Origin: an uncultured Bacteroidales bacterium
Lineage (GTDB): Bacteria > Bacteroidota > Bacteroidia > Bacteroidales > UBA11471
Direction of reading: 5' to 3'
DNA length: 64,000 nt
Assembly: GCA_947593515.1 (NCBI GenBank)
Contig: CANQDQ010000011.1
Coordinates: 1 to 64,000, forward strand
Shown here: one piece after another, positions 8,116-15,416 of the stretch
Numbering within the stretch: the first letter of the stretch is position 1
Layout: every line of letters begins with the position of its first letter
The notes under the pieces: model-generated
The model's input: only the letters and a program-made list of their open reading frames with translations
Databases searched by the model: none
What the model was told of the DNA's origin: nothing
Position numbers and translations under genes: made by a program

Positions 8116-9351
8116 ATGCCGCTTTCGTTGAAAATAGCCTTGCGTTATCTTTTCTCTCCGAAATCGCATAGCGCCATCACGTTCATATCGGTCATTTCGG
8201 TGCTGGGTATGGCGGTAACGACGATGGCTATTATTTGCACGTTGTCGGTATATAACGGTTTTCAGGAGCTGATAGGCTCGCTATGTTCGCGCCTCGATCC
8301 GCAGATAAAGATACTCCCCGTGTCGGGAAAGACGCTCGACACCGAGTCGGCTGAAATAACCGATTTGTACCGTTGGAGCGAAATAGCTGAAATCATGCCT
8401 GTTGTCGAAGAGAATGCGCTCGCTGTTTTCGGCAAAAACCAGATGCCCGTACATCTCAAAGGAGTTGGCGAAAATTTCAAAGCCGTTCACAGCGACGTCG
8501 ACGACATACTTCTCGACGGGGAATTTATCCTGACCGATACCCTTGAAAATTGGGTGGCATTGGGAGCCGGCGTGGCTTCTCATCTCGAAACGGGAACGTT
8601 CTTTTCCCGTCCGCTGCGTCTGTATGCTCCGCGTCGCAAAGCCCGTGTAAATCTTGCCAATCCCTCGACCTCGTTTCGGGAAGAAAACAGCTATGTGTCG
8701 GGGGTGTTTGCCGTCGATCAGCAGGAATACGACGAATCGTGGGTCATTGCTCCGCTGGCGTTGGTGCGGCGACTCTACGACTATACGACCGAAGCCACTG
8801 CTTTGGAATTGCGCTTGCAGGAAAGCGCGGACGAAGCGGCGACAATCGCCCACCTGCAACATCGTTTGGGCGGTGGCTATCGTGTGCTGAACCGCCTGCA
8901 ACAACAGGCGACAACATTCAATATGATGCAGATAGAGAAATGGATTACTTTCCTGATATTGATTTTCATATTGATGATAGCCACGTTCAACGTTATCGGC
9001 TCGCTTTCGATGCTGATTATCGACAAGCGGGAAAACATACGTACCTTGCGCAGTTTGGGTGCGGACGATAGGCTGATATCCCGCATATTTCTTACCGAAG
9101 GGTGGCTTATATCGGCAATCGGTGCGGGTGGTGGATTGTTGGCGGGTATCGTGTTGTGCCGCTTACAGGAAGCATTCGGGTGGCTGCGTATGGGCGATGC
9201 CGGAGCCTTTATCGTCGATGCTTATCCCGTGCGCTTTTATTGGAGCGATGCCCTTGTGGTGCTGCTTGTTGTGGTATTGATGGGCTTGCTTGCCTCGTGG
9301 TTCCCGGTAAAATATCTGCAATCCGATCGTTTTTTCCGTGAAGAGGAATAA
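8116..9351 (+). CDS. FtsX/LolC-LolE-like ABC transporter permease
   Basis: LKIALRYLFSPKSHSAITFISVISVLGMAVTTMAI N-term and C-term FtsX-type TM helices. Confidence 0.88.
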   Translation: MPLSLKIALRYLFSPKSHSAITFISVISVLGMAVTTMAIICTLSVYNGFQELIGSLCSRLDPQIKILPVSGKTLDTESAEITDLYRWSEIAEIMPVVEENALAVFGKNQMPVHLKGVGENFKAVHSDVDDILLDGEFILTDTLENWVALGAGVASHLETGTFFSRPLRLYAPRRKARVNLANPSTSFREENSYVSGVFAVDQQEYDESWVIAPLALVRRLYDYTTEATALELRLQESADEAATIAHLQHRLGGGYRVLNRLQQQATTFNMMQIEKWITFLILIFILMIATFNVIGSLSMLIIDKRENIRTLRSLGADDRLISRIFLTEGWLISAIGAGGGLLAGIVLCRLQEAFGWLRMGDAGAFIVDAYPVRFYWSDALVVLLVVVLMGLLASWFPVKYLQSDRFFREEE

Positions 9352-9370
9352 GCGGATAGGAAAAGAAAAA

Positions 9371-9404
9371 TGCAGGGTACGAATCTTTCGATTCGTACCC
9401 TGCA
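9371..9404. terminator. Bidirectional hairpin terminator
   Basis: Perfect 14-bp stem TGCAGGGTACGAAT / ATTCGTACCCTGCA between convergent genes. Confidence 0.75.
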
Positions 9405-9426
9405 TTGCATTTTGGGGAAGGGCTAT

Positions 9427-10167
9427 TTATTGTTGTTCGTTTTTGAAACTCGTCGAAAGCGTATAAGTATATCCGCCAAATAGTTCGTCGTAATTGGGAA
9501 CAGGAGTGAATCCGGAAATGTTTATTCCTTTGAAAAGCAAGACGATACGTGTAATGTTTGACGGGTAATCCGGCAACTCGAAGGTGTACCAGCAGTCGTT
9601 CGTCTTAGCCGTTACCGCTTCGGCAGTGTAAGAAATAATAAGCGTATCGTTCGATTGACCGGTATAGTAGGCATCGGCAGGAGCGCTTTTCTGTATCAAT
9701 TTTACCGAAGAAGTCGAGGCAAACAACCGGGCATTCATGGTCAGCATATTCGGTGAAAGAGGGGTCTTATATGTGATGAAAGGTCGGGCAAGAGCTTGCA
9801 TCGTGTCGGTTTTAATAAAGGAAAAATCCGTCGGCATGGGAATGATTTTGTCGATATTCCAAGTCGATAGATTGGAAAGAGAGGCTTCGAAAATGCCGGT
9901 AGTTTGTGCATTTCCCGACTGATGGTCCCAATCGATCGTATAATTTGTCATGGCTCTGGCAATGCTGTCGGAGAGAGTGGGTACACCGTCGCCGGTAAGG
10001 CAGAGTCCGGTGTCGTCCAACCGTATGTAGGGGGTGTTGCTCAGTGAGTCGAAAAGTATCGTTCCCGTTCCATACGAAATAGTTATGTTGCCTTTGTCGC
10101 CCAAGCAGCTGTTGAACGAAAGCAATGCGACAATGGCGAAAGCCGGAAGTGAAAAGAAATGTTTCAT
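9427..10167 (-). CDS. NigD-like lipoprotein (third gene of sigma/anti-sigma operon)
   Basis: Lipobox LSFNSC; N-terminal segment ISYGTGTILFDS..YIRLDDTGLCLTGDGVPTLSDSIARAMTNYTI is NigD/OB-like; downstream of ECF sigma and beta-barrel anti-sigma. Confidence 0.55.
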   Translation of the reverse strand: MKHFFSLPAFAIVALLSFNSCLGDKGNITISYGTGTILFDSLSNTPYIRLDDTGLCLTGDGVPTLSDSIARAMTNYTIDWDHQSGNAQTTGIFEASLSNLSTWNIDKIIPMPTDFSFIKTDTMQALARPFITYKTPLSPNMLTMNARLFASTSSVKLIQKSAPADAYYTGQSNDTLIISYTAEAVTAKTNDCWYTFELPDYPSNITRIVLLFKGINISGFTPVPNYDELFGGYTYTLSTSFKNEQQ

Positions 10168-10188
10168 GTTCGTATTGTTTTTTTGTTA

Positions 10189-11412
10189 TTAAAATGCGGT
10201 TCTGAATCCGATATGGAAAGAAAATGTTACCGGGTGGTCTTTCCATAAATTGGCAATATCGCTGTTGCCGTTGTTTATGAAATAAGAAACTGCCGGTTCG
10301 GCATACAATCCGAAATGTTTCGTGATGACGTAGCTGGCGCCCAGTTTCAGATGTACCGACCACTGAATATGCTTGTCACGGATATTTTCGGTATAGGTTT
10401 CGGTGTGGAAGTTTTCTTCTGCGGAATTTGTGATCGTGGCATTGAACGCTTGATTTTCACTTTTGTCGGTACGGCGACCGTATATGTTGAAATCCATGCG
10501 TGGACCCGCCGAAACATAAAGGTTGAAATGTTTTCGGTTGAAGAAACGGTATCGTGCCGACAGCGGTATGCCTATGTAATGGAGTTCCTGCCGTCCTTCC
10601 CTGATATAGTCTCCGCTTTGGTAATCGGAGCGTAACAGAGTGTAGATGGCGCCGGTTTCTATGCCCCAATGTTTCCCGAATTGTTTTTCTACGGTCAGAC
10701 CGGCGGAGATAGGAATTTTGTGTTTGTATTTCAACGGAAGGTCGATAGATGCAATGCTGTACATCATCTGGCTGCGGGTATGGCGTGTGTCGGGAGCGTA
10801 TTCCGATGAAGCAAAGGAGTTTTCCATGACGGCGCCGAGTGCGATGCCTTTGTTCTCTCGTTTGCGGACGGAGGGTCGCGCATCGGCATAAGTCATTGCT
10901 TTTGTGACTTTTGACGGACGTTGCGGTGTCGCGTCGGTCGATTCGTTTTTGTCCGCCGGCTCGCTTTTTGTTTCTGCATTGTTTTCCGCACGGTTCGAGG
11001 CTGTCGCTGTTTCCGCTTCTGTGCTTTCTTCCGCAAGATACAAGGGTGTGTCTTGTTTGTTTTTCCGGTTTTCGGCAAGCGGAGCAGAAATCGGTGCTTC
11101 AGGATAAATTGCGGGAGTGTCGTTTGATGGCGGAAGTTGCGTTTCTGCCGTTTCTTCCGGTGCAGACAGAAGCTCCGTTTCCTGTCGGGCGACGATAGGG
11201 TCGGCGGAGGGAGAAAAAAACAGATATGCCGCAACCGACCCGATGAGCAGGGCGACCGTTGCTGCAGCATAGCGCACAAACGCCCTTTGCCGCAGCGGTA
11301 TATGCCGGTTCTCTGCCGGAAGGCGCCGTTCGATGTCTGCCCATAGCGTTTCGGGTACATCGTACTCGACATCTTTCAGTTTCGATTGTATCAGTTTATC
11401 GGTCTGTTTCAT
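10189..11412 (-). CDS. Outer membrane beta-barrel protein with N-terminal anti-sigma-like region (Dma-like)
   Basis: Cytosolic N-term MKQTDKLIQSKLKDVEYDVPETLWADIERRL, one TM (AAATVALLIGSVAAYLFF), long low-complexity linker, C-terminal barrel ending FRTAF; directly downstream of ECF sigma gene. Confidence 0.75.
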   Translation of the reverse strand: MKQTDKLIQSKLKDVEYDVPETLWADIERRLPAENRHIPLRQRAFVRYAAATVALLIGSVAAYLFFSPSADPIVARQETELLSAPEETAETQLPPSNDTPAIYPEAPISAPLAENRKNKQDTPLYLAEESTEAETATASNRAENNAETKSEPADKNESTDATPQRPSKVTKAMTYADARPSVRKRENKGIALGAVMENSFASSEYAPDTRHTRSQMMYSIASIDLPLKYKHKIPISAGLTVEKQFGKHWGIETGAIYTLLRSDYQSGDYIREGRQELHYIGIPLSARYRFFNRKHFNLYVSAGPRMDFNIYGRRTDKSENQAFNATITNSAEENFHTETYTENIRDKHIQWSVHLKLGASYVITKHFGLYAEPAVSYFINNGNSDIANLWKDHPVTFSFHIGFRTAF

Positions 11413-11438
11413 TTTCTTGTCTTCCGTGTCCGACGGGG

Positions 11439-11966
11439 TTATAACAATCCGTCGATGCGTTTTTGAAGCCACCGTCTTGCCCGTGCTAGTTGCGAGCGCG
11501 ATGTGCTTTCGGTGATACCCAGCATTTCGCCAATCTCCTTGTGGTTGTACCCTTCGACGCCAAAGAGGTTGAATACCGTGCGAAAGCCCTCCGGCAGTTC
11601 CGCTACGATTTCGAGCAGCTCCTTTGCAGACAGCCGTTCCAACGTCGAGTAGTCGGGTTCTTGCAGCGATTCTTCACTGTCGATGTCGGCAGTTTCTTTC
11701 AGAACGTCGGGGTGGCGGAGATGTTCGAGTGCCGTATTGATGAAAATCCGTCGTATCCAGCCTTCAAAAGAGCCTTTTCCTGCGTAGCTGCCGATAGCTG
11801 TAAAGACTTTCAAAAAGCCCTCCTGCAACAAATCTTGCGCCGTTTCGCGGTCGTGCCCGTATCGGTAGCATACTGCCATCATTTTACGGGCATAGGCGTT
11901 GTAGAGCGCGTGTTGTGCTGCGGGTTCGTGCTTTTGGCAGCGGTCTATCAACTCTTGTTCGGTCAT
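11439..11966 (-). CDS. RNA polymerase ECF sigma factor (sigma-70 family)
   Basis: YRYGHDRETAQDLLQEGFLKVF (region 2), HKEIGEMLGITESTSRSQLARARRWLQ (region 4); start trimmed to MTEQELIDRCQ. Confidence 0.92.
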   Translation of the reverse strand: MTEQELIDRCQKHEPAAQHALYNAYARKMMAVCYRYGHDRETAQDLLQEGFLKVFTAIGSYAGKGSFEGWIRRIFINTALEHLRHPDVLKETADIDSEESLQEPDYSTLERLSAKELLEIVAELPEGFRTVFNLFGVEGYNHKEIGEMLGITESTSRSQLARARRWLQKRIDGLL

Positions 11967-11991
11967 GCAGCGGGCAGGGCTTTTTGACGAA

Positions 11992-12029
11992 CAGCTATTA
12001 GTCAGATGTAAAAAACCGACTAATAGCTG
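11992..12029. repeat. 12-bp perfect inverted repeat upstream of ECF sigma gene
   Basis: CAGCTATTAGTC (11992-12003) and GACTAATAGCTG (12018-12029), 14-nt spacer. Confidence 0.8.
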
Positions 12030-12080
12030 CAATATAAATGTCGTTTTTAAGGTTTTATAACCTGTCTTGTCTTTTCGGGA

Positions 12081-13325
12081 TTATGAAAGTTTGTGTATCA
12101 CTAATCCGGAGCGCAGTTTCGGCTCGAACCATGTCGTCTTCGGCGGCATGATGTTGCCTGTGTCGGCAATGTCCATAAGCTGTTTCATCGACACGGGGTA
12201 GAGGGCGAGAGCCACCCGCATTTCGCCGCTGTCGACTCTGCGCTTCAATTCGCCGAGACCTCTGATGCCGCCGACGAAGTCGATGCGCTTGTCCGACCGC
12301 AGGTCGGTGATTCCCAGAATGTCGCGCAGTATCAGGTCGGACGATATGGTAACGTCGAGTACGCCGATGGGGTCGCTGTTGTCGTAAGTGCCTTCTTTGG
12401 CGGTGAGCGAGTACCATTCGCCGCTCAGGTAGAGCGAGAAGTTGTGCAGTGCCGTCGGGCGGTATATTTCTTTTCCTTTCTTTTCCACGATGAAATTGGC
12501 AGCGAGCTTTTGCAGGAAGGCTTCGTCGCTCAGTCCGTTCAGGTCTTTCACCACGCGGTTGTAGTCGATGATGTGCAGCTGTGAGGCGGGGAAGCACACG
12601 GCTAAGAAGTAGTTGTATTCTTCGTCGCCTCGGTGGTGCGGATTCTGTTTCGCCTTTTCCGCTCCCACTAATGCGGCGGCGGCGGTGCGGTGGTGCCCGT
12701 CGGCGATATAGAGGTAGGGAATGGCGGCGAACAGCTCGGTAATGCGCCGTATCGTGGCGGGGTTGTCGATAATCCAGAAGTGGTGCCCGAATCCGTCGGG
12801 GGCGATGAAGTCGTATTCCGGCTCGCCCTTGACGATGCTGGCAACGATGTCGTTCAGCTCTTTGTTATCGGGGTAGGCGAAAAATACCGGTTCGATGTTG
12901 GCGTTGTTGATGCGCACGTGTTTCATGCGGTCTTCCTCTTTGTCGCGGCGGGTCAGTTCGTGTTTTTTGATGACGCCGTTCAGGTAGTCGTCTACGTTGG
13001 CGCATACCACAAGACCGTACTGCGTATGTCCGTTCATCGTTTGGGCGTAGATGTAGTACCGCTCGCTTTCGTCTTGCCGCAGCCACCCTTTTTCTTGGAA
13101 CAGGTTGAATTGTTCCACCGCTTTGTCATAGACTTCGGGGGCGTGTTCGTCGGTGCCCGGCGCAAAATTTATTTCGGGTTTGATGATGTGATAAAGCGAT
13201 TTTTCGTTGCCGGCGGCTTCGGCGCGAGCTTCTTCCGAGTTCAATACGTCGTAGGGGCGCGATGCCACTTCTTCGACCAGTTCGCGGGGAGGCCTGATGC
13301 CTTTGAAAGGTTTTATTTTTGCCAT
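12081..13325 (-). CDS. DUF1015 domain-containing protein
   Basis: KIKPFKGIRPPRELVEEVASRPYDVLNSEEARAEA; YIADGHHRTAAA. Confidence 0.9.
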   Translation of the reverse strand: MAKIKPFKGIRPPRELVEEVASRPYDVLNSEEARAEAAGNEKSLYHIIKPEINFAPGTDEHAPEVYDKAVEQFNLFQEKGWLRQDESERYYIYAQTMNGHTQYGLVVCANVDDYLNGVIKKHELTRRDKEEDRMKHVRINNANIEPVFFAYPDNKELNDIVASIVKGEPEYDFIAPDGFGHHFWIIDNPATIRRITELFAAIPYLYIADGHHRTAAAALVGAEKAKQNPHHRGDEEYNYFLAVCFPASQLHIIDYNRVVKDLNGLSDEAFLQKLAANFIVEKKGKEIYRPTALHNFSLYLSGEWYSLTAKEGTYDNSDPIGVLDVTISSDLILRDILGITDLRSDKRIDFVGGIRGLGELKRRVDSGEMRVALALYPVSMKQLMDIADTGNIMPPKTTWFEPKLRSGLVIHKLS

Positions 13326-13342
13326 AAGGTTATGTTTTAACG

Positions 13343-13396
13343 ACAAAGAGGGACACGCTATTTACGCGTAACGAATAGCGCGACCCTCTTTTTGTC
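13343..13396 (-). terminator. Imperfect hairpin between serA and the DUF1015 gene
   Basis: AAAGAGGG / CCCTCTTT outer stem and CGCTATT / AATAGCG inner stem. Confidence 0.5.
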
Positions 13397-13412
13397 GGAG
13401 AGTTTTTATTGA

Positions 13413-14333
13413 TTATTTGTTCACTCTGAATCTATCGATGCCGTCTTTCAGGAATCCGACGGATTGTTTGGCGGCGGCGATGCCGGCATTGATGTTGGCT
13501 TCTGCCGTTTGTGCGCCCATTTTCTTCGGGGTGAAGAAGTAGCGACCCTCGAATTTTTCGGCGAACACCGGTGCATTCGACGGAGCGATGTCCGACACGT
13601 AGCGGAAGTCGGCGCGCTCTTCCATCAGTTTTACCAACTCCTCTTCGTCGATGACTTCTTTGCGGGCGGTGTTTATCAGCACGGCGCCTTTGGGCATCTG
13701 TTTCAGCAGGTTGTAGTTGATGGATTTTTTCGTTTCGTCGGTGGCGGGAATGTGCAGCGACACGAATTGACAGGTCTTGTACATTTCGTTGATGTCGCTT
13801 ACGGGTGTTACGCCGGCTTCGGCGATGACGTTTGCCGGGCAGTAGGGGTCGTATGCGCAGACCTCCATACCGAACCCTTTGGCAATGCGGGCGACGTTGC
13901 GTCCCACCTGCCCGAAAGCGTGGATACCGAGTTTCTTGCCTTTCAGCTCCGTGCCCGACGTACCGTTGTAGAGGTTGCGCACGATCATCACCGTCATGCC
14001 GAATACCAGCTCGGCAACGGCGTTGGAGTTTTGTCCGGGCGTGTTCATGACGCACACGTTGTGTACCGTGGCGGCAGCGAGGTCGATGTTGTCGTAGCCG
14101 GCGCCTGCGCGCACGACGATTTTCAGTTTCTTGGCGGCGTCGAACACTTCGGCGTCGATGATGTCGCTGCGCACGATCAGACCTTCAACATCTTTCACGG
14201 CGTCTATCAGTTTGGCTTTTTCTCCGTATTTTTCGAGCAGCACCAGTTCCATTCCGGCGGCTTCTATCTCTTTGCGGATACCTTCTACGGCAACGGCTGC
14301 AAAAGGTTTGTCGGTAGCAACTAATATTTTCAT
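13413..14333 (-). CDS. serA: D-3-phosphoglycerate dehydrogenase
   Basis: VVRAGAGYDNIDLAAA, LGIHAFGQVGRNVARIAKGFGM, adjacent to serC. Confidence 0.9.
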   Translation of the reverse strand: MKILVATDKPFAAVAVEGIRKEIEAAGMELVLLEKYGEKAKLIDAVKDVEGLIVRSDIIDAEVFDAAKKLKIVVRAGAGYDNIDLAAATVHNVCVMNTPGQNSNAVAELVFGMTVMIVRNLYNGTSGTELKGKKLGIHAFGQVGRNVARIAKGFGMEVCAYDPYCPANVIAEAGVTPVSDINEMYKTCQFVSLHIPATDETKKSINYNLLKQMPKGAVLINTARKEVIDEEELVKLMEERADFRYVSDIAPSNAPVFAEKFEGRYFFTPKKMGAQTAEANINAGIAAAKQSVGFLKDGIDRFRVNK

Positions 14334-14348
14334 GACGATTTGTCTCTA

Positions 14349-15416
14349 TTAATGGTTTTTCTCAAATTCCTGCATGGTGGCGATGAGAGCCTCTACGCTC
14401 GACTTGGGCATGGCGTTGTAGAGCGAAGCGCGGAATCCGCCCACCGAACGGTGTCCCTTGATGCCCACCATTCCTTTGCTCGAAGCGAATTGAGCGAATT
14501 CTTCTTCCAGCTCTTTGTATTCGTCGTTCATTACGAAACATACGTTCATGATAGAGCGGTCTTCGGGTACGACCGTGCCTCTGAACAGTTTGTTGCGGTC
14601 GATTTCGTCGTAGAGGATAGCCGCCTTTTCGAGATTCATCTTTTCGAGCACTTTCACGCCGCCCAACTCTTTGTAGTATTTGAGGGTCTGCAATGCGGCG
14701 AATACGGGCAGACAGGGAGGCGTGTTGAACATCGAACCTTTCTTGATGTGCGTGCGGTAGTCGAGCATCGTAGGTATGGCGCGTTCCACCTTACCCAGCG
14801 CATCTTCGCGCACGATGGCGATGGTTACGCCGGCAGGTGCGAGGTTTTTCTGTGCGCCGGCATAGATGATGTCGTATTTCGACACGTCGATGGGACGGGA
14901 GAAAATATCGGACGACATATCGGCTACCAAAGGCACTTTCACGTCGGGGTCGTAACGCATTTCCGTTCCGAAAATGGTATTGTTCGTGGTGATATGGAAA
15001 TAATCGGCATCGTCGGGTACGGTGTAGCCTTTGGGTATGAAAGTGAAGTTGGCGTCTTTGGAGGAAGCCACTACATCGACTTCACCGAACAGTTTGGCTT
15101 CTTTTATGGCATTTACAGCCCATGTGCCGGTTTCGAGATAAGCCGCTTTCTTTTTCAACAGGTTATACGGTACCATGCAGAATTGCAGGCTGGCGCCGCC
15201 GCCCAAATATACGACATCGTATCCGGCAGGGACGTCCAACAACTCTTTTACTAATGCGCGCGCTTCGTCCATGACGGCGGAAAATTCTTTGCTGCGGTGC
15301 GAGATTTCCAACAGGGAAAGTCCCGTTCCGGCGAAGTCCAACACGGCATCGGCTGTGTTCTTGATTGTGTACTGGCTCAAAATAGAGGGGCCTGCATAGA
15401 AATTGTGCTTCTTCAT
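14349..15416 (-). CDS. serC: 3-phosphoserine/phosphohydroxythreonine aminotransferase
   Basis: [48 protein letters not shown]. Confidence 0.95.

Follow-up and report, generated by a model that had tools for sequence, protein, structure and literature searches.

A Dma/Reo-type ECF sigma, anti-sigma and NigD-like lipoprotein operon as a probable envelope-stress switch in an uncultured Bacteroidales bacterium

Overview of the operon

We found an ECF sigma factor gene, a gene for a predicted envelope-spanning anti-sigma protein and a lipoprotein gene at 9427-11966 on the minus strand of the window, the whole 64,000-nucleotide stretch of DNA analysed from an uncultured Bacteroidales bacterium. The three-gene set belongs to a type of stress switch already described in gut Bacteroides. 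Judged by its genes and their arrangement as an operon, the predicted domain anatomy, the family relationship, the sigma gene present at every locus tested and the conserved upstream motif, it is very probably an envelope-stress switch of the Dma/Reo kind that amplifies itself: outer-membrane stress would release the sigma factor, which would then drive its own operon.

The ECF sigma, anti-sigma and lipoprotein operon proposed in the earlier note was recovered: the three ORFs are real, lie head to tail in one orientation with gaps of 21-26 nt, and apparently form a single operon (Table 1). The middle protein was described there as directly following the sigma gene, and the sigma gene indeed ends 26 nt upstream of it. 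A serC-serA-DUF1015 block (12081-15416) lies upstream on the same strand, and 15 distinct loci of the window clade have DUF1015 ahead of the sigma gene. On the other side, within 8116-9406, a LolC/E-like permease gene points towards the operon (TIGR02212 E 8e-57, under the cut-off), and the long symmetrical hairpin between the two convergent units could terminate both.

Table 1. Coordinates of the operon features in the window
Feature	Position	Strand	Evidence
ECF sigma factor (175 aa)	11439..11966	(-)	TIGR02937 E 1.9e-30; Sigma70_r2, r4_2; start from relatives' alignment
Dma/Reo-type anti-sigma (407 aa)	10189..11412	(-)	PF13568 E 1e-16; AF2 model; Foldseek; 308 relatives
NigD-like lipoprotein (246 aa), probable effector	9427..10167	(-)	lipobox Cys21; AF2 pLDDT 81; PDB matches
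Terminator-like hairpin at operon end, 17-bp stem then TTTCTTTTCC	9369..9406	(-)	
Putative autoregulatory ECF promoter TGCAGC-N17-CATCT	12004..12031	(-)	clade-wide motif and spacing
Perfect palindrome CAGCTATTAGTC-N14-GACTAATAGCTG over promoter	11992..12029	(.)	shuffling, RNA fold, conservation

The sigma factor and the anti-sigma protein

Profile searches assigned the first protein to the ECF sigma factors (TIGR02937, Sigma70_r2 and Sigma70_r4_2). Its gene starts at the ATG at 11966, where the alignments of its relatives begin. The earlier note had extended the sigma gene and the operon to 12029, and this boundary had to be corrected, because the longer reading treats the promoter palindrome as coding: the 66 bases preceding the ATG in the longer ORF are promoter, and the codons LQLLVGFLHLTNSC are the promoter palindrome. 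In the sigma tree, the window sigma fell in a 22-row clade (support 99/98) together with Coprobacter, Barnesiella and others, in agreement with the proposed position outside Bacteroides sensu stricto. The sigmas linked to this anti-sigma family were separate from four other ECF sigmas of the same genome (86/90).

The anti-sigma protein starts at the ATG at 11412 and was found to have the anatomy that had been read from its sequence, apart from the length of one part. A cytosolic helical N-terminus had been expected, and the AF2 model, built with 31 relatives, placed helices at residues 2-13 and 21-30. A single TM helix had been put near 45-65; there was one hydrophobic segment by hydropathy, with the best 19-residue window at 49-67, and AF2 gave a helix at 40-66. 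The linker was indeed rich in Ala, Glu and Pro (16%, 13% and 10% over residues 67-200); its length, taken earlier as about 150 residues, was about 123 (67-189). AF2 predicted near-continuous disorder from 69 to 183, with pLDDT below 50 across nearly all of it. The outer-membrane barrel ending in Phe was borne out by a C-terminal match to OMP_b-brl_2 (62 bits against a curated cut-off of 27) and by the final residue, which is Phe. The modelled barrel has eight strands within 190-406, mostly with pLDDT above 90, and matched OmpA, OmpW and Ail in Foldseek.

Conservation among 31 sequences followed the same division. The mean frequency of the commonest residue was 0.46 in the first 39 residues, 0.44 in the barrel and 0.22 in the linker, Trp24 was invariant, and the distance from the TM helix to a conserved barrel His ranged from 155 to 213 residues. 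A cytosolic segment and a barrel that are conserved, joined by a tether that is not, count in favour of the Dma/Reo switch. The Pfam search recognised no anti-sigma domain at the N-terminus, the cytosolic part of which is only about 39 residues long, and a PDB sequence search with the anti-sigma profile gave no meaningful match. By analogy with the genetically studied homologues, the protein would span both membranes in the cell and would bind the sigma factor with its cytosolic part.

The lipoprotein

The third protein carries a lipobox (...LLSFNSC) behind a hydrophobic signal, with Cys21 invariant in 21 relatives. Its description as a NigD-like lipoprotein was upheld at the level of predicted fold and failed at the Pfam and NCBIfam sequence cut-offs. 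All 16 PDB matches to the AF2 model below E 0.001 were NigD-like or related Bacteroidales lipoproteins, with the alignment behind this model containing Bacteroides NigD sequences. The match to NigD_N reached E 0.022 and 15.3 bits (cut-off 24.3) and that to NF051862 E 4.7e-5 and 23.3 bits (cut-off 60); the NigD_C profile gave no match in the window lipoprotein, which was also below the NCBIfam NigD1 and NigD2 cut-offs. We therefore call it NigD-like, as its modelled fold is, and do not place it in the NigD family.

Comparison of profiles with the signal peptides removed linked the window-type and Bacteroides-type lipoproteins over 198 columns (probability 96.8, E 2e-10; 0.2 in the reversed control). 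The link between the window type and the Prevotella type was weak alone (probability 11), and the two connect through the Bacteroides type.

Promoter and palindrome

Upstream of the sigma gene in the window clade, we found the pattern TGCARC, 17 bases (16 in one locus, L008), then CATCT or CGTCT, in 19 aligned loci. A looser form, derived from and counted on the same loci, was present in 27 of the 92 scanned loci (four duplicates among them), nearly all of the window clade. The copy before the operon is its putative autoregulatory promoter, judged from motif and spacing. The zero-mismatch motif has a single site adjoining a gene start in the genome, the operon's own. TGCARC-N16-17-CATCT occurred at 10 sites in the genome compared with 3 for the reversed control, and the scan with this strict pattern revealed no further regulon member; the non-operon sites were located in open frames, in two near-copies at a single place in C26 without a clear gene, or in a geneless intergenic stretch (L030). 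By eye, the Bacteroides loci instead have TGCAGTATT...GCATTT upstream, and an apparent mirror copy is turned towards the lipoprotein gene that diverges from the pair. For B. fragilis, a motif of EcfO has already been published, as cited in PMC7366714, and TGCARC-N17-CATCT is therefore not claimed as new.

The promoter is overlapped by a perfect inverted repeat, which was found zero times in shuffled sequence and has a predicted RNA fold of -22.1 kcal/mol (z -7.8). It also stands before the sigma gene in the related genomes G003, G006 and G034 and in Coprobacter (G158, L040), in weaker form in L039, and at a site in G244 of which the gene behind was unread. Across 393 genomes it was confined almost exclusively to the position before this sigma gene, in three families, with a likely chance match in G253, and it was kept in these families with a few compensating changes. 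In three loci (L043-L045), a different palindrome spans the promoter. A dispersed operator or mobile repeat was rejected, the palindrome being single copy in this genome, and a known RNA was rejected for want of an Rfam match.

From its sequence and position, the palindrome could be a terminator or insulator, an operator or a DNA structure. The transcript from the sigma promoter is expected to start at or before the second arm, so an RNA hairpin is possible only in read-through from DUF1015. One reading concerns the palindrome only, and we give it a little less than an even chance: the palindrome may be the end signal or insulator of the serC-serA-DUF1015 operon, blocking read-through into the sigma gene and overlapping the sigma promoter. 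DUF1015 is co-directional and ends 80-167 nt before the sigma gene in palindrome-bearing members of the clade. Two loci without the palindrome (L055 and L066) have, by eye, a G+C-rich hairpin and then a T-rich stretch upstream of the promoter, and in two other relatives without it (G004 and G005) DUF1015 and the lipoprotein gene adjoin. The variants also retain pairing, partly via G-U: 94% of the pair cells in six aligned palindromes were standard and two pairs were changed on both sides. However, the window palindrome has no T-tract behind it and two terminator scans made no call there, though the second also missed the hairpins of L055 and L066 and is thus insensitive. The covariation score (0.27 compared with 0.16 shuffled) rests on six sequences and these two double-changed pairs, and an operator for a dimeric protein would explain the palindrome equally well.

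Relatives without the sigma and anti-sigma pair

Two close relatives drop the switch yet retain the lipoprotein, which was a modest surprise. G004 (L135) and G005 (L136) share 95.5-95.8% identity with the window across the serA-DUF1015 flank but lack the part corresponding to window 10184-12081, so that sigma, anti-sigma and palindrome are all absent at the locus. About 30 bases behind DUF1015 comes the lipoprotein gene, intact at 247 or 248 codons, and from this position it would now be driven by the upstream operon. A search of the rest of these two genomes (94% and 91% complete) turned up no close sigma or anti-sigma.

Identical junctions in G004 and G005 point to a single event, and as the more distant G003 and G006 retain the full operon, loss is the simplest direction. 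Pairwise identities of 95.2-95.8% put the window, G004 and G005 at roughly the same distance from one another, which would also allow recombination or regain. The dN/dS of the lipoprotein was 0.17 compared with the window and 0.25 between G004 and G005; this purifying selection makes the protein appear useful without its regulator. We might tentatively speculate, at odds clearly below even, that the regulator is a detachable layer in this clade: the pair and the palindromic promoter can be lost as a block, the lipoprotein being kept by selection and wired behind serC-serA-DUF1015, and the palindrome acts as a second control that bars upstream transcription from the stress operon. G004 and G005 set against the window offer a natural comparison of the same lipoprotein under stress control and, probably, in an ordinary operon.

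Distribution and gene order

One conserved peptide was scanned against the genomes of 84,980 species; tblastn confirmed 308 places, and the best 80 of these were retrieved. With the loci from relatives this made 94 loci, and after removal of two with broken frames and of four duplicates, 88 distinct loci remained. The ECF sigma gene was immediately upstream of the anti-sigma gene in 88 of 88, Bacteroides fragilis included. A 14-sequence anti-sigma profile was too diverse for the contig scan and a six-sequence profile was used. The family profile matched 124 of 148 sampled Bacteroidales genomes at E 0.001, an upper bound that overstates the true members because weak partial, barrel-only matches are counted. 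The family studied in Bacteroides and Phocaeicola is thus a widespread Bacteroidales module.

A lipoprotein gene stood beside the pair in about 70 of the 88 loci by a lenient lipobox test, which admits a few false genes (e.g. L080, L100), a stricter form having missed real lipoproteins. As a new observation, this gene occupies three positions around the pair: 3' of the anti-sigma gene in the window clade, 5' of the sigma gene on the same strand in Prevotella, Muribaculaceae, Cryptobacteroides and others, and divergent in Bacteroides. The three arrangements track the sigma tree, with 16 changes compared with 48 for shuffled labels. The universal sigma neighbour and a NigD-like gene in one of three positions make the lipoprotein, itself poorly understood, the obvious output to test.

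Several loci departed from these arrangements. In Bacteroides rodentium (L105:1859-3498), the sigma is fused directly to the TM helix and tether, followed by a frame break and then a barrel ORF, which resembles the Dma3 type with a built-in sigma. Two Prevotella-type loci (L058:2-874 and L098:1-924) have a second anti-sigma-like gene shortly upstream of the pair, suggesting tandem systems. In two distant families (L011:2104-3399 and L012:2066-3358), the gene behind the anti-sigma encodes a different lipoprotein of about 430 residues that is not NigD-like.

Proposed mechanism

In the unstressed cell, the anti-sigma protein would keep the ECF sigma at the inner membrane by means of its short cytosolic helices and would itself cross the periplasm as a flexible tether, anchored by the small outer-membrane barrel. 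When the outer membrane or the assembly of barrels is disturbed, the barrel or tether may be altered and the sigma factor thereby freed. The freed sigma would transcribe its own operon from TGCAGC-N17-CATCT, raising the NigD-like surface lipoprotein as the probable effector and, as feedback, the anti-sigma itself. Survival of the lipoprotein gene in G004 and G005 without its regulator is what would be expected if the lipoprotein is the output.

A narrower role as a specific control of outer-membrane vesicle formation, exerted via the lipoprotein in the way that Dma1 works through NigD1 in B. thetaiotaomicron, is in our opinion unlikely. The window protein is of the same family with a NigD-like lipoprotein in the same operon, and dma1 and dma2 mutants of B. 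thetaiotaomicron hypervesiculate. However, Dma1 acts through nigD1 and Dma2 raises vesicles independently of nigD1, so the two affect vesicles by different routes and the vesicle link does not carry over as it stands. EcfO-Reo of P. vulgatus, moreover, was described via toxin and envelope stress, and the window lipoprotein is remote from NigD1 in sequence. It is safer to extrapolate to a general role in envelope stress.

It is very improbable that the N-terminal segment is a signal peptide and the protein an ordinary OmpA-like barrel beside a sigma gene by chance, with the sigma regulated otherwise: the barrel does resemble common outer-membrane proteins and no known anti-sigma domain was recognised, but the 39 residues before the TM helix show the same degree of conservation as the barrel and include an invariant Trp, as would not be expected of a cleaved signal peptide (the earlier note had named a signal peptidase site as refuting evidence), the sigma linkage held at all tested loci, and homologues are genetically proven anti-sigmas.

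Comparison with known systems

The Dma proteins are defined by an N-terminal domain, a TM helix, a disordered tether, a barrel and an adjacent ECF21 sigma gene (PMC13088901). Every one of these that could be tested here was found in the window (N-domain, TM helix, tether, barrel and neighbouring sigma gene), in support of the proposed Dma-type assignment; for the sigma class, the window sigma groups with barrel-linked Bacteroides sigmas, the libraries used containing no ECF21 model. By their published description, Dma1-3/Das1-2 of Bacteroides thetaiotaomicron (PMC13088901) share the cytosolic N-domain, one TM helix, long tether, barrel and adjacent ECF sigma. In contrast to them, the window system belongs to another clade and has another gene order, with the lipoprotein gene 3' in the operon, and its genome has a single such sigma/anti-sigma pair compared with three (Dma1-3) in B. 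thetaiotaomicron.

In P. vulgatus, EcfO is kept in check by Reo, drives nigD genes and responds to antibacterial toxins, and the pair is linked to envelope stress as well (PMC9308784, PMC13114119). The EcfO-Reo systems of Phocaeicola vulgatus and Bacteroides fragilis are alike in joining an envelope-spanning anti-sigma to an ECF sigma, with nigD genes in the regulon, and two B. fragilis relatives (L090, L103) match the window anti-sigma over its full length with 27% identity. They differ in that, in Bacteroides, the neighbouring lipoprotein gene runs divergently and the upstream sequence is of the TGCAGTATT...GCATTT form. Genomes with these systems carry several nigD genes each, while a PF12667 search of the window genome gave no match. 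Structurally, the lipoprotein model comes closest to the NigD-like proteins 3k6o, 4j8q, 4pqx, 3qwn and 3nqi, with E values from 2e-8 to 1e-5 and sequence identities of 11-18%.
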